Under the pieces are notes generated by a model, which was not told the DNA's origin, ran no database searches, and saw only the letters and a list, made by a program, of their open reading frames with translations. Positions 2,455 to 44,362 of a stretch of 44,362 nt of DNA are shown here, piece after piece. Origin of the DNA: a virus; IMG/VR virus record IMGVR_UViG_3300027805_000023, positions 1 through 44,362 of that record; one strand, given 5' to 3'. Position 1 is the stretch's first letter; each line of letters opens with the position of its first letter. A program made the position numbers and the translations under genes.

Positions 2455-4599
2455 TTGAACAGAAAACTAAGAATATTTACAGCCTTCCTGATGTCAGCAG
2501 GTTGGCTTTTTGTTGTACCTACAGAAGCTCGTGCATCAGAAGGCTTAACTGCTGAATTATATAATGTCCTGGGTCAAAATAATGCTCCCTACATACCACA
2601 AGGAGAGACTGCAACAGTAACGACAACTGTACCCAACATTGACTTTCAATGGGGTGGTGGTAGTGTTCTTGGTGGTCCTTCAGAAGATGTTATAGTAAGA
2701 TTTACTGGGTCTATACGCAGTAACACAACGCAAGATATATCATTCTTAGCACAAGCAGATGATGGAACTAAACTCTACGTAGACGGCGTCAATATAACAA
2801 ACGACTGGTTTGATAAAGGTGGGGGCGGAACTGTAAGCTCTCCAGTATCTTTCACAGCAGGAGTTCCAAAGACCATAGAATTACTGTACTATGAAAATGG
2901 TGGTGGTGCTTGGGTACAACTACTATGGAATCAATCTGGATCTATGCAGGTTATACCGGCCTCTGCTTTTACCTCTCAAGTTTATACACCAGTAGTTCCA
3001 AAGACAATAGGTGCCCCAAGAAATCTAACTGTAGTTGATGGGGCAACTTCAACAGTTTTAGATTGGGATGCTCCAGACACTGGTAATACTCAACCAGAAA
3101 GGTATGCTATTTCTTTTAGTGCAGACGGTGGTGGTTGGGGAATAGCTACAGGCAATGTAGGAGATGCCAACGCCCTTAATACAACTATCACCATAGATCA
3201 TTCATTGCTAGAACAATTAAAACCAAGTGGGACTGTTTGGTCATTCCATATTAGATCAGACAACGATACAGAGCGTTTATACTCTGCAAACTCAAATGTT
3301 GTTACATTAAAAATAGGAAAGACAGCGGAAGAGATTGCTGCTGAAGCAGCAGCTGCAGCAGAAGCTGCTCGAATAGCTGCCGAAGAGGCAGCAACTGCCG
3401 AAGCAGCAAGACAAGCAGCACTTGCAGCAGAGGCAGCAAGAGTTGCGGCAGAACAAGCAGCCGCTGAAGAGGCTGCGCGTATTGCTGCCGAGCAAGCGGC
3501 AGCTGCAGAGGCAGCACGCATCGCAGCAGAACAAGCTGCAGCACAAGCAGAAGCAGACAGACTTGCAGCACTTGCAGCAGCAGAAAAAGCAAGACTTGAA
3601 AAAGAAGCAGCGGAAAAATTAGCAGCAGAAGCAGAAGCAGCTCGTATTGCTGCTGAGAAAGCAGCAGCTGAGGCTGCAGCACGAGATAAAGCTGCAGCTG
3701 AAGCAGCAGCGCAAGCAGAGGCAGATAGATTAGCTGCCGAAGCCGCTGCAGCAGCAGCAGAAGCTGAGAGAATCGCTGCAGAGGCTGCAGCTGCTAAAGC
3801 TGAAGAAGAAAGAATTGCAGCGGAGGAAGCCGCAGCTAAGGCAGAAGCAGACAGGCTAGCTGCTGAAGAAGCAGCTGCTAAGGCAGAGGCTGAACGTCTA
3901 GCTGCAGAGGAAGAAGCTAAGGCGCAAGCTGAAGCAGATGCCAAAGCAGAGGAAGAAAGATTAGCTGCTGAGGCTGAGGCTGAGGCACAAGCAGAGGCGG
4001 ATGCTAAAGCAGAGGCCGAAGCTATAGCACAAGAAGAGGCTAATGCCAAAGCTGAAGCAGAGGCTGCTGCCGAGGCTGCGAAAGAAGAATTAAAAGAGGC
4101 AGCTGAAGCAGGTACGTTGACACCTGAGCAGAAAACAGAGGTTGCTAACACCCTTATTGAAGAGGCAAATGGTGGTCCTGTATCTGCAGAGGCTATTGCT
4201 GCTGCGGGAATTGAGTACAAAGACCTTCCCGAAAGTACTCCTGTTGAGGTTAGGCAGGATGAAAACGGCAATGAGGTTATAATTACAGCAGACGTTGCCG
4301 CAGCTCTCGTATTACTTGAGAACCCAGCGGAGTTAATTGGTGAATTATTTAGTGACCCAGGTCAAGCCCTTCAAGCACTCGGAAGTATCGGTGCTGATAT
4401 GTCTACAGAAGAACGTGAAGAGGCAACCGATATGGTTGTTGCCACAGTGGTTGCAGCCGGAGCTGCAATGAATGCTGTGTCAGCAGCTGCAGGAACTACA
4501 GGTGGAACTACATCCGGTGGATCTACAGGTGGTGGGGGCGGAGGAGGAGGCGGTGGCGCCTCTGGTGAGTCAAAAGGAATAAGGAGACGTAAACCTTGA
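2455..4599 (+). CDS. exported PA14 / fibronectin-III / long Ala-rich helix protein
   Basis: 714 residues starting at a TTG, with AAGGAG 8 bases upstream. Residues 1-27 form a Sec signal peptide (basic start, hydrophobic core, TEARA cleavage region). Residues about 28-180 are a PA14-like beta domain (ADDGTKLYVDG, YYENGGGAWVQLLW). Residues 185-288 look like a fibronectin type III domain. About 290-552 is an uninterrupted Ala/Glu/Lys/Arg helix resembling TolA. A conserved-looking globular domain follows at about 553-680, then a glycine tract and a basic GIRRRKP tail. It is first in the lysis operon and translationally coupled to a small holin-like gene. PA14 domains often bind carbohydrate. A cell-envelope or lysis role is inferred; a fibre role is also possible. 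Confidence 0.7.
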   Translation: MNRKLRIFTAFLMSAGWLFVVPTEARASEGLTAELYNVLGQNNAPYIPQGETATVTTTVPNIDFQWGGGSVLGGPSEDVIVRFTGSIRSNTTQDISFLAQADDGTKLYVDGVNITNDWFDKGGGGTVSSPVSFTAGVPKTIELLYYENGGGAWVQLLWNQSGSMQVIPASAFTSQVYTPVVPKTIGAPRNLTVVDGATSTVLDWDAPDTGNTQPERYAISFSADGGGWGIATGNVGDANALNTTITIDHSLLEQLKPSGTVWSFHIRSDNDTERLYSANSNVVTLKIGKTAEEIAAEAAAAAEAARIAAEEAATAEAARQAALAAEAARVAAEQAAAEEAARIAAEQAAAAEAARIAAEQAAAQAEADRLAALAAAEKARLEKEAAEKLAAEAEAARIAAEKAAAEAAARDKAAAEAAAQAEADRLAAEAAAAAAEAERIAAEAAAAKAEEERIAAEEAAAKAEADRLAAEEAAAKAEAERLAAEEEAKAQAEADAKAEEERLAAEAEAEAQAEADAKAEAEAIAQEEANAKAEAEAAAEAAKEELKEAAEAGTLTPEQKTEVANTLIEEANGGPVSAEAIAAAGIEYKDLPESTPVEVRQDENGNEVIITADVAAALVLLENPAELIGELFSDPGQALQALGSIGADMSTEEREEATDMVVATVVAAGAAMNAVSAAAGTTGGTTSGGSTGGGGGGGGGGASGESKGIRRRKP
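3322..4110 (+). repeat. alanine/glutamate-rich repeat tract in the PA14 protein gene
   Basis: GCA/GCT-rich, degenerate tandem coding repeat specifying units such as EAARIAAEQAAA every 13-14 residues. The encoded stretch is a single long helix or coiled coil of about 260 residues. The tract also produces a long spurious open frame on the opposite strand. Copy number may vary between strains because such repeats slip. Confidence 0.75.
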
Positions 4600-9798: not shown

Positions 9799-10114
9799 GC
9801 TTACCCTCCAGGTCAAGCCACTGGTCCAAAGTTAGACCGAGCTTTTTAATTTTACGCTGAGCTGCGTTTCGTTCTCGGTGGGATAGTCCGCCAAAGATTC
9901 CGTGCAACTCATCATTTAATATTGCTTCTTTAAGACATTCTTTTCTTACTGGACAAGGAGGTCTTCCATCCTTACCCCAGCATATGGCCTTTGCTTTATC
10001 CGCAATCGGCTTGTACAAAGCTTTGTCTCGTGGTGGAAAGAACATCTCTGTATCTTCTCCACGACACTTGGCTTCGTATCTCCAAGTCCAATCTGGATCA
10101 TCACTATATCGCAC
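9761..10114 (-). CDS. whiB: WhiB-family Fe-S regulator with expanded cysteine spacing
   Basis: 117 residues from a GTG that overlaps the upstream stop (TAGTG), with GAGGTGA upstream. It has Cys17 in AKCRG and a DTEMFFPPRD segment, then Cys45, Cys54 and Cys60, and GIFGG at 72-76 followed by a basic helix. WhiB proteins bind a 4Fe-4S cluster and modulate the host sigma factor. The canonical spacing CxxC-x5-C is changed here to C-x8-C-x5-C by six extra residues. The glycine turn is GIFGG instead of GVWGG. It overlaps the nuclease start by 38 bases. A second, canonical WhiB is encoded at 20170. Confidence 0.82.
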   Translation of the reverse strand: MRYSDDPDWTWRYEAKCRGEDTEMFFPPRDKALYKPIADKAKAICWGKDGRPPCPVRKECLKEAILNDELHGIFGGLSHRERNAAQRKIKKLGLTLDQWLDLEGKHGKTNNDSEQGS

Positions 10115-20173: not shown

Positions 20174-20415
20174 CGTCTTACCCTGCGCTTAATACGCCTA
20201 CGCTCTACAGGAGTTGTTCCACCCCATACACCTTCTTTTTCATTGGTGTTAAGGGCAAAGGACAAACACTTGTCTTTGATCCAACAATCATTACAGATGC
20301 TTTTAGCTTGCGCCACATCCTTGTCCTCGTACTCTTCTGGAAAGAAAATATCCGTGCTGTAGTCTATACATAACTGTGTCCCATCAAACGGACTTAATGC
20401 CACTGAAAGCTGCAT
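20170..20415 (-). CDS. whiB: canonical WhiB-family Fe-S regulator
   Basis: 81 residues from the ATG at 20415; longer in-frame starts would run deep into dnaB. Cys16 (QLC), Cys41, Cys44 and Cys50 (CNDCWIKDKC) ligate the 4Fe-4S cluster with canonical C-x2-C-x5-C spacing. GVWGG at 62-66 and a basic tail ERRRIKRRVRR complete the fold. It may bind the host primary sigma factor region 4. Phage WhiB (TM4) is known to interfere with host WhiB2 function and superinfection. The gene overlaps dnaB by 32 bases and sits in the replication operon. Confidence 0.88.
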   Translation of the reverse strand: MQLSVALSPFDGTQLCIDYSTDIFFPEEYEDKDVAQAKSICNDCWIKDKCLSFALNTNEKEGVWGGTTPVERRRIKRRVRR

Positions 20416-38399: not shown

Positions 38400-40166
38400 T
38401 TACGCTGTTGCGTTTCCTGTTAGTTGTCCAATTCTGATGACAACAAACTCTGCTGGGTATTGTAAGGCTACGCCTATTTCAATATTTACTCGACCATTTT
38501 GAATATCTGACCAAGTAGTTGTAGTCTCATCAACCTTTATAAAATAAGCTTGGTCTGGAGAGTTGCCTCGAAGACCACCCTGTTGCCAGTAGTTAAGAAG
38601 GAAGTTTCCAATTCCTGTCTTTAGGCTGTTCCATAAAAGAGAATCGTTATTCTCAAATACAGCGAATGCGCTAAGATCTTTAGCTTGCTTTTCGATGAAT
38701 GTCAAAGAACGACGTACGTTGATGTAACGGTTACCAGGTGAGTTGTCCATTGTGCGTCCTCCCATAACAACAATTCCAGCGCCAGGGACGTTACGAATTG
38801 CGTTGATTGGGTCGGAGTATGTGTTAATATCATCAAGCTCTGCGTTAGTAAACAAGTGCTCAGTAGAGACTGCAAGAGCAATCTTGTTACCTAGACCCGC
38901 TGGAGTCTTGAATACTCCACGGCTCTTATCTGTAGCTAAGTATTGACCAACCATCGCAGCACCAGGTGCCTGAAGACGAACTGCTCCAGGGATCTTATTG
39001 CCGTCTGGGATGTTAACCCATGGGTAATAAGCAGCTGAAATGTTTCCAGTTGTAGATCCTGCAGCAATTGCCATAGTAGCTGTTACTTGAGCCTTAGCTG
39101 CTGTAACAGAAAGACCTGAAGGAGTATCTACAACAACAAATGCGTCATCACGTGATGCTGCATAAATCATAGCATCTCCATGAATCTGAGATGTTAGTGT
39201 TGATGTAGCTGCGTATGGTGCATCAGCTGCGTAGATAACTAGTGGATTTTGAACTGAATCAAATGATTCCCAAGCAGCAGAGTAATCTGCACGTACAAGA
39301 GCGGCACCGTCAGCACCACCAGTAAACGCAGTAGCTGCAGTGGCTGCAGTGTATGGCGTAGCTGTAGTAGAGATTCCTGATGCAGATACTCGTACAAGAC
39401 TTGATGTTGTATCAATTACAGACTTGAAATAGTACTTATCGGTTGAATCCATACTTAGATCTGTAAATGATTCTACTAGGTTTGTTGCTGAACCTACTGT
39501 GTAGTAGATGTTTAGACCAAAGCGGCCTGCAACACCTGCTGGTACTACCTGTGCTGAGTATGCAGTAGACCATGTTCCAGCGTTGATAGCGTTAAGTGTA
39601 AATACAGGTGTAGCAGTGATTGTAACTGTAGCTGTAGCTGTAGCGCCTGTTACGGCAGTACCGGTTGCAGCATTTGTTACTGTGAACTGTGTTGATGTTG
39701 CAGATGCAATAGTCACACCTGTTAGGTTAAATGTAGATGTGCTAAGACCTGTAATAGTTACTGTCTGTCCAGAAGCAAATGTATTTGCAGCTGTGTATGT
39801 AACAGTACCTGATGCTGCAGATGCTGCAGTAACAGTTGCTGTAAGTGTGGTAGTTGATGCTGCTTGGTTAATGAATGTGATGGTTCCTGGAAGTGCTCCA
39901 GCACCAGTGACACGACGTACGACCAATGATCCTCCGCCATTTGCGAAGAAATTGTATGCAGCCCATGTTAATGGGTAGGTGTCGTTTAATCCGCCAAATG
40001 TCTTCACGAAGTCTCCCCAAGACTGAACCAATTGAGGATCAGTTGCGTTACCCCTAGAAAGGGCACCAGCCATTGCACCTACTGATGCACTGGTATCTGG
40101 TAGTGAGACTTGCTGTGGAAGAGACACTTCTTGGACATAGACGCCTGGGCGACTGAATGTTGCCAT
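38400..40166 (-). CDS. contractile tail sheath protein with inserted beta domain
   Basis: 588 residues; AAAGGAG before the ATG. The start FSRPGVYVQEV, then FVKTFGG and SLVVRRV, and late motifs RNVPGAGIVVMGGRT, RYINVRRSLTFIE and FVVIRIGQLTG define the sheath family. An extra domain at about 107-182 (TVTITGLSTSTFNLTGVTIA, FTVTNAATGT) interrupts it and is similar to a segment inserted in the J protein. The sheath contracts to drive the tube through the host envelope. Confidence 0.92.
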   Translation of the reverse strand: MATFSRPGVYVQEVSLPQQVSLPDTSASVGAMAGALSRGNATDPQLVQSWGDFVKTFGGLNDTYPLTWAAYNFFANGGGSLVVRRVTGAGALPGTITFINQAASTTTLTATVTAASAASGTVTYTAANTFASGQTVTITGLSTSTFNLTGVTIASATSTQFTVTNAATGTAVTGATATATVTITATPVFTLNAINAGTWSTAYSAQVVPAGVAGRFGLNIYYTVGSATNLVESFTDLSMDSTDKYYFKSVIDTTSSLVRVSASGISTTATPYTAATAATAFTGGADGAALVRADYSAAWESFDSVQNPLVIYAADAPYAATSTLTSQIHGDAMIYAASRDDAFVVVDTPSGLSVTAAKAQVTATMAIAAGSTTGNISAAYYPWVNIPDGNKIPGAVRLQAPGAAMVGQYLATDKSRGVFKTPAGLGNKIALAVSTEHLFTNAELDDINTYSDPINAIRNVPGAGIVVMGGRTMDNSPGNRYINVRRSLTFIEKQAKDLSAFAVFENNDSLLWNSLKTGIGNFLLNYWQQGGLRGNSPDQAYFIKVDETTTTWSDIQNGRVNIEIGVALQYPAEFVVIRIGQLTGNATA

Positions 40167-43183: not shown

Positions 43184-43432
43184 TTATTCCTCTATCTCTT
43201 CTTTATATGAAATTCGTATCGACTCCCACTTATGTAGTGGGCAAGACGCGTTTGGTAACTTTACCTTTTGAGACATAAAGCAGCCGCACTCTTTACAGTT
43301 TCCAGTAGGAAGTAAAGATGGGCATGCTTTGCATATAGCAAGACGCCCCTCAGCATCTACAGTATCTACTCGTCCCAGGTTTTTATTATACAGGTCCCAA
43401 GGCCTAGCTGGACGGTCATAGGGTGTGCTCAT
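43184..43432 (-). CDS. cysteine-rich zinc-binding phage protein
   Basis: 82 residues from the ATG at 43432, chosen for GGAG 8 bases upstream. AICKACPSLLPTGNCKECGC followed by CPLH gives a CxxC...CxxCxC...CxxH set. This resembles a small phage zinc-binding family found near structural genes of myoviruses. Function unknown. Confidence 0.65.
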   Translation of the reverse strand: MSTPYDRPARPWDLYNKNLGRVDTVDAEGRLAICKACPSLLPTGNCKECGCFMSQKVKLPNASCPLHKWESIRISYKEEIEE

Positions 43433-43442
43433 ATTGTGCTCC

Positions 43443-44362
43443 TTAGTTTGGTGATGCCGCAAAGTTATCTACAAAAACTGCCCCAGGATTATTTGTAGCA
43501 GGTCCCTTAATAATACCAGGTTTTGTGCCAGTGTTAGGCGATGTTTGAGCCGCGGAGTATGTGCCAATTGCTGAACCTCCGTTATAAACCGTATAGCTCA
43601 AAGTGTTGCCAGAGGTAGTAACTGATACTCTAGTTGCCGGAGAAACTAGGTTGTGTGCATTAACTTCTGTTATTGTTCCAGCAACCGACTTTAAAACTTT
43701 AATCTGATATTGAGCAGCTGTAGCTGTTTGAGTACAAGAGTAGGTAGTACAGCAAGTGTAGTAATCAGTACAGCAGTTACCGCAGCAGGTGTTTGACTCT
43801 TCAATAGCGTTACCGCAAGCACACCCAAGACTAGCACAAGGATCAACTTCGCACACATTCTCCCCATACTCGCAGGCACCATAACTATCATAGTAATAAC
43901 ATACAAACGAACATACGAGCTCTGAACAACAACAGTCCATAGTATCTGGTGCAGCATTGCCGCAAGGACAAGATCCGCAACAATACACGGTTTGGCTGCA
44001 AGTAGTGCAGCTTTCACATGTTGTAGTGTAGCTGTAATTGTAGTTATAGTTTGTGCCTACCACAGCCCACCAATTATTAGCATCAACACCCCAAACAACT
44101 ACACCAGTGGAGTATGTAATATCGGCTGATACAACCATATTTGATGAACCTAGTTCAACTACGGCAAGAGGGTATGATGAACCGGCTGTAGCAGACTCTA
44201 TTGCTTGAGTGCCGTTAGCAAACCAAGACCCTCTTAAGTTACTCCAAGCGTTTCCAGTATCTGTGTTACCTAAAGTACCTGCAGCTGTTGTTCTAGTAAA
44301 TGAGTCAGTGATAGCAGCTAAAAACCATATTCTCCAAGTACCCGCTACTTTGATGTAGCCCC
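43443..44362 (-). CDS. lectin-like (LamG/concanavalin-type) protein with a 24-cysteine insert; start outside window
   Basis: Open to the right edge: 305 residues are visible and the real start is beyond 44362; an internal ATG at 44138 is not the start. The parts GTWRIWFLAAITDSFTRTTA, VVVWGVDANNWWAVVG and YQIKVLKSVAGTITEVNAHN to AVFVDNFA look like a LamG-type beta sandwich. Between two of its strands (bases 43734-44018) about 95 residues carry 24 Cys, often as CC or CxC. The lectin-like fold suggests surface binding. Whether the insert makes disulfides or binds metal is open. Confidence 0.62.
   Translation of the reverse strand, partial: GYIKVAGTWRIWFLAAITDSFTRTTAAGTLGNTDTGNAWSNLRGSWFANGTQAIESATAGSSYPLAVVELGSSNMVVSADITYSTGVVVWGVDANNWWAVVGTNYNYNYSYTTTCESCTTCSQTVYCCGSCPCGNAAPDTMDCCCSELVCSFVCYYYDSYGACEYGENVCEVDPCASLGCACGNAIEESNTCCGNCCTDYYTCCTTYSCTQTATAAQYQIKVLKSVAGTITEVNAHNLVSPATRVSVTTSGNTLSYTVYNGGSAIGTYSAAQTSPNTGTKPGIIKGPATNNPGAVFVDNFAASPN
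43734..44018 (-). other. cysteine-rich insertion segment within the lectin-like protein
   Basis: Encodes about 95 residues with 24 Cys, from TTTCESCTTCSQ to CCTTYSCTQ, including CCGSCPCGN and a related LGCACGN. The two flanks join a single beta-sandwich pattern if the segment is removed. The CGNA repeats hint at internal duplication. Confidence 0.7.

Follow-up and report, generated by a model that had tools for sequence, protein, structure and literature searches.

Two actinobacteriophage proteins found where the tail meets the host, the tip of Douge gp20 (8ZDP) and the receptor-binding domain of TM4 gp23 (9N6A), have a concanavalin-A-like fold, and the surface domains of Douge, including the central-fibre tip, bind mycobacterial glycans (PMC13033339). 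In the ultralong CDR-H3 of bovine antibodies (germline segment IGHD8-2), a hairpin of another beta-sandwich is drawn out as a stalk of two strands, in which Tyr alternates, and this stalk carries a hypervariable, disulfide-rich knob (PMC5994613, PMC8602281). An even number of Cys is found in 84% of cow heavy chains and has been taken as evidence of pairing (PMC7366855). Hypervariable adhesin surfaces are also known in phage tail proteins diversified by retroelements, where the changes are adenine-directed point changes. Phage proteins, which come from the reducing cytoplasm, are usually poor in Cys.

The window analysed here is a 44,362-base record of an uncultured virus. It ends with the gene of a split lectin-like tail protein (43443–44362, minus strand), the 5′ end of which is lost at the contig end together with about 30 N-terminal residues; the open frame (44360–43443) encodes 305 of about 335 residues. 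Full-length relatives (L003, L005, L007, L008) are about 335 residues long, start with MAGRVKVAGTWR and contain three N-terminal K-V-x-G-T-W repeats (including YTKVAGTWRTV and, as the last, GYIKVAGTWR) followed by the lectin-like domain. The last repeat is retained in the window (44328–44360, minus strand). All 24 Cys of the protein lie in residues 115–209 (44018–43734), about 25% of which are Cys. This agrees with the preliminary description, which had noted 24 Cys within 95 residues at 43734–44018. The CGNA repeats that it mentioned are also present, as a first CGN-DTM-CC motif, CGNAAPDTMDCCC (43926–43964, minus strand; also in L122, L068, L066 and L113), and a second CGN motif in the insert, CGNAIEESNTCC (43782–43817, minus strand). 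The insert-bearing frame is not a chance frame, since relatives at 64–79% identity (plus one 100% copy) keep both the frame and 20–24 Cys, and 90 open reading frames were found with both flanks.

The flanks of the insert are a single concanavalin-A-like domain interrupted at one hairpin turn. This conclusion rests on homologues that lack the insert and on structure prediction. L334 and L277 are continuous through the site, with a 10-residue turn (PRYSLSDGVY), and the bacterial L344, L345 and L347 have no insert and an ordinary hairpin at this position, e.g. NYWRFGRIDGGTYVLEQI. AlphaFold, used with an alignment of 64 family members, gave a model with a mean pLDDT of 84, in which both flanks fold together in one sandwich that is mostly above 90. 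The N-terminal half of the sandwich (WFLAAITDSFTRT...VDAN; 44076–44327, minus strand), mostly above 90, and the C-terminal half (43446–43682, minus strand) were both assigned from the model and its structural matches. The best of these were the Douge central-fibre tip (8zdp; Z 18.2) and CBM66 (Z 18.0), followed at Z 15.4 by the receptor-binding domain of TM4 gp23. The fold is thus that of concanavalin-A-like lectins and LamG domains, with Z values of 13–18 to many such structures. The likeness to the Douge and TM4 proteins concerns the sandwich only, at 8–11% sequence identity. CBM66, GH43-associated domains and L-type lectins likewise share the sandwich (Z 13–18), but the phage protein gave no match to their sequence families and, to our knowledge, none of these domains carries such a knob. 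No laminin G or concanavalin-A-like Pfam profile scored above its gathering threshold among 64 members, and the window protein had no Pfam match at all. The proposal of a LamG-type sandwich split by an insert was therefore borne out by the insert-free homologues, the model and the structural matches; flanks belonging to different domains were found neither in the homologues nor in the model.

The insert itself is predicted to form a two-stranded stalk with a less certain knob. In the AlphaFold model of the window protein, an ascending strand (residues 96–125; 43986–44075, minus strand), with the alternating Tyr of NYNYNYSY followed by Cys115, 118 and 121, pairs with a descending strand (residues 197–226; 43683–43772, minus strand), with Cys197, 203, 204 and 209, as a ribbon of about 30 residues. 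The knob comprises about 70 residues (126–196; 43773–43985, minus strand). Its inner hairpin (147–157/163–173) has a pLDDT of about 88–89 and its loops 128–144 and 176–195 are mostly below 50. The exposed knob suggested earlier is thus retained as a predicted protrusion on a stalk, the tip of which is modelled with low confidence. The model of L122, a member with 31% identity, was confident only in the sandwich and in a central mini-module (pLDDT about 90), and its stalk was not built confidently. Therefore, the stalk is a prediction for the window subgroup and a hypothesis for the other members.

Among known designs, this one comes closest to bovine ultralong CDR-H3, in which a sandwich hairpin is likewise prolonged into a stalk with alternating Tyr and a knob, and Gly, Tyr, Ser and Cys are prominent in the composition of both. 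Yet the phage protein is not a member of that class, its sandwich being a lectin and not an immunoglobulin. There is no common descent, the phage inserts have more Cys (up to 34), and their diversity lies between phage genomes rather than arising by somatic diversification. We therefore regard the likeness as an analogy, not as kinship.

An initial protein search yielded 7 close relatives. Because its query motifs were restrictive, the search was extended to DNA patterns matching the conserved D-A-N-x-W-W strand; this gave 90 usable open reading frames with both flanks, including 80 distinct sequences at the site of insertion. Another, unrelated pattern (the CPxGGTL module), scanned later, provided 34 new inserts, which served as a hold-out set. 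Altogether, 114 distinct sequences have their insertion at the same hairpin turn, with insert lengths of 10 to 378 residues. As the records are fragments from uncultured phages, sampled with patterns that need a D-x-N-x-W-W strand or a CPxGGTL module, frequencies in this family are not population frequencies. The inserts vary to an extreme degree and comprise CGN-DTM-CC motifs, CYQT repeats, CNPYN repeats, GYGCT repeats and CPSGGTLSGTTC modules; searches with degenerate insert motifs returned the seven close relatives and chance matches, and nothing else. Two contigs each encode two lectin paralogues with different inserts (L124, 2859–3872 and 10848–11972; L074, 3396–4325 and 4775–5710).

Some inserts share with disulfide loops of other phage proteins the 12-residue module CPxGGTLxGxxC, which has one Cys pair per copy. 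This module also occurs in Cys-rich proteins without a lectin flank, which account for 26 of the 65 distinct module-bearing proteins (among them L353, L360, L363, L364, L370 and L397). Many of these are on contigs of 5–12 kb, which may be filamentous phages. In L334 (7054–9144) and L277 (2361–4454), the loop is empty and the protein ends in a C-terminal tail of Cys-rich modules with polyproline linkers and 45 Cys, to which the knobs have apparently been relocated.

The number of Cys was even in 80 of 80 distinct sequences (range 0 to 34) and in all 34 hold-out inserts, hence in 114/114, three of which were free of Cys. Tyr, Gly, Asn, Ser, Thr and other residues had odd counts in 28–43 of the 80 sequences, i.e. 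in roughly half, indicating that the effect is specific to Cys. Clustering at 70% left 55 Cys-bearing clusters, none with an odd count, and on a tree based on the flanks the Cys count changed at least 43 times without producing an odd tip. Part of these even steps is automatic, because two-Cys modules are duplicated, though such duplication in its turn suggests that Cys are used in pairs.

Individual pairs could be proposed from co-loss. Among the six closest sequences compared, Cys150 (43911–43913) and Cys170 (43851–43853) were both missing in L003 and L004, and Cys131 (43968–43970) and Cys193 (43782–43784; all four on the minus strand) were removed in L006–L008 by matched two-residue deletions in opposite strands. 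Both joint losses are in line with the pairing of strands in the model. By strand register, residue 150 lies opposite residue 170 in the predicted hairpin (150+170 = 147+173 = 320). The agreement with the model is not fully independent because the sequences with co-lost pairs sat in the input alignment of AlphaFold. In the window insert, five Cys pairs fall in one register (i+j = 324; best-register test, p = 0.015 against shuffled positions). The excess of in-register Cys was not significant in most of the other members tested, and we therefore do not claim such a ladder as a rule of the family.

The preliminary description had left the choice between a disulfide-rich knob and a metal cluster. 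Even counts in 114/114 sequences, together with the co-lost pairs, are what would be expected of a disulfide-rich mini-domain with fully paired Cys. We considered the possibility that the Cys instead hold metal, as in zinc ribbons or a metallothionein-like cluster, the insert being a metal-stabilised knob or a metal scavenger. Dense Cys with CxxC and CC spacings would suit such a role, and four-Cys zinc sites also yield even counts. Yet His is nearly absent (28, compared with 1134 Cys), the number of Cys need not be a multiple of 4 (30 of the 55 clusters), single Cys pairs come and go, and none of the 64 members matched a Pfam zinc family; the Cys/His ligands in groups of about four that mark zinc and metal-cluster domains were not found. 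Metal binding is accordingly very unlikely in our view. Because counts are always even, follow no multiple-of-4 rule and are accompanied by almost no His, we strongly prefer, on these sequence grounds, the reading that the Cys of the insert are joined in disulfides, so that the first half of the earlier suggestion is favoured over the second.

Comparison of close relatives suggested how the inserts may change. The inserts of L007 and L008 are 95% identical and their flanks 73% and 75% (pairwise flank range 73–78%), whereas the window protein and L008 share 49% of the insert and 88% and 82% of the flanks. The DNA shows the same switch in identity, and blocks of conserved sequence border the insertion site on either side. 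These sequence comparisons support a swapping of inserts as cassettes between backbones in the window subgroup. Diversification by a retroelement appears less likely: no reverse transcriptase was found in the 19 fragmentary records searched, window included, and whole inserts and their lengths vary, unlike the adenine-directed point changes of retroelement-diversified proteins, with which the hypervariable adhesin surface is shared.

Could the insert be low-complexity sequence that has expanded almost neutrally in a loop that tolerates it, the lectin domain alone binding the host? Tandem repeats such as CYQTCYQT, CNPYNCNPY and GYGCTGYGC do resemble products of slippage, but strict parity in 114 sequences would be unexpected under neutrality and compensated deletions preserve the matching of the stalk strands, making this explanation extremely improbable.

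The surroundings of the gene point to the tail. In close relatives, which are contractile actinophages, the lectin gene belongs to a tail-fibre module. Directly upstream of it are genes for a Peptidase_S74 fibre end, for three small proteins, for tail-fibre assembly, for two GT25 glycosyltransferases and for a 430-residue repeat protein, and a DUF6171 gene comes after it. In L008, the genes of the three small proteins (262–687, 690–1124 and 1124–1504) separate the fibre-end gene from that for tail-fibre assembly; two of the proteins were scanned and matched no family, and it is possible that the three are further variable tip proteins. The next gene downstream in the window encodes a DUF6171 protein of 92 residues (43184–43462, minus strand) and overlaps the end of the lectin gene. 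A tail sheath gene (38400–40166, minus strand; PF17482 and phrog_23) indicates that the tail is contractile. The window also encodes a 714-residue protein (2455–4599) on the plus strand, opposite to most window genes; its N-terminus resembles a signal sequence, and it contains a long repeat region rich in Ala and Glu.

WhiB serves as a marker of actinophages (PMC6802176; PMC10202952). The host is assigned to the actinobacteria because the window contains two genes for WhiB-like regulators (9863–10084 and 20194–20373) and WhiB was found above cut-off in 19 of 48 family records.

From synteny and fold, we infer that the lectin protein is displayed on the virion, and the concanavalin-A-like fold combined with the tail-fibre synteny suggests that the lectin or its knob binds a receptor. 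Probably, then, the protein is a host-recognition lectin, a tail-fibre-associated adhesin with an exchangeable, variable, disulfide-paired stalk and knob that contacts the host. The lectin domain would serve as a scaffold and perhaps make an initial weak contact with glycans, while the stalk would project the small knob beyond the lectin surface to structures on the host surface. Disulfides would form once the virion has left the reducing cytoplasm, probably after lysis into oxic water, and would fix the knob; they would stabilise a loop with little other core, so that drastic changes in sequence could be tolerated. The knob would be altered through swaps of whole inserts that leave the scaffold untouched, Cys being added or lost two at a time.

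A disulfide-bonded insert might also be purely structural or protective, with no part in host recognition; it could, for example, act as a stiff spacer, form a cap that resists proteases or contact another virion protein. The long predicted ribbon stalk fits such a role, as do the fibre architecture represented by Peptidase_S74 and repeat proteins nearby and the occurrence of Cys-free, Tyr-rich versions. We consider it unlikely, since hypervariable, exchanged inserts on conserved flanks fit a changing partner, as in host recognition. The Tyr-rich, Cys-free inserts found at the same site in L053 (10394–11527) and L065 (7418–9166), of 148 and 96 residues, respectively, indicate that Cys is not essential.

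The family is a large, undescribed one in uncultured actinobacterial phages. The window protein had no match in Pfam, PHROGs or NCBIfam; among 64 other members, phrog_25859 matched 13 and phrog_36019 nine, both without assigned function. Sequence searches gave no match in the PDB, in GenBank phages (queried with seven different members) or in plasmids, and no close relative in bacterial genomes; two of 396 genomes from an actinomycete's phylum had versions of the domain, only without insert. No prior description of the family was found in the open-licence literature. The view that no phage domain of this kind had been described thus held in all these searches, and the insert did not turn out to be a known ordinary domain.

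These findings provide a direct and testable handle on host recognition by phages of uncultured actinobacteria. Despite the usual scarcity of Cys in phage proteins, the most variable part of this family is built from apparent disulfides. The family is also a natural library of more than 100 disulfide-rich loops on a single scaffold, of use in understanding and engineering binding proteins, and it stands out as a candidate case of convergence with the ultralong antibodies of cattle. More tentatively, and with somewhat less than even confidence, we propose that putatively aquatic actinophages practise an antibody-like display, in which a conserved lectin scaffold presents, in a single loop set aside for them, interchangeable disulfide-rich knobs, exchanged by recombination at the conserved loop edges, that set host range. 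If true, this would be a general, non-immune route to hypervariable binding loops, convergent with the antibodies of cows.
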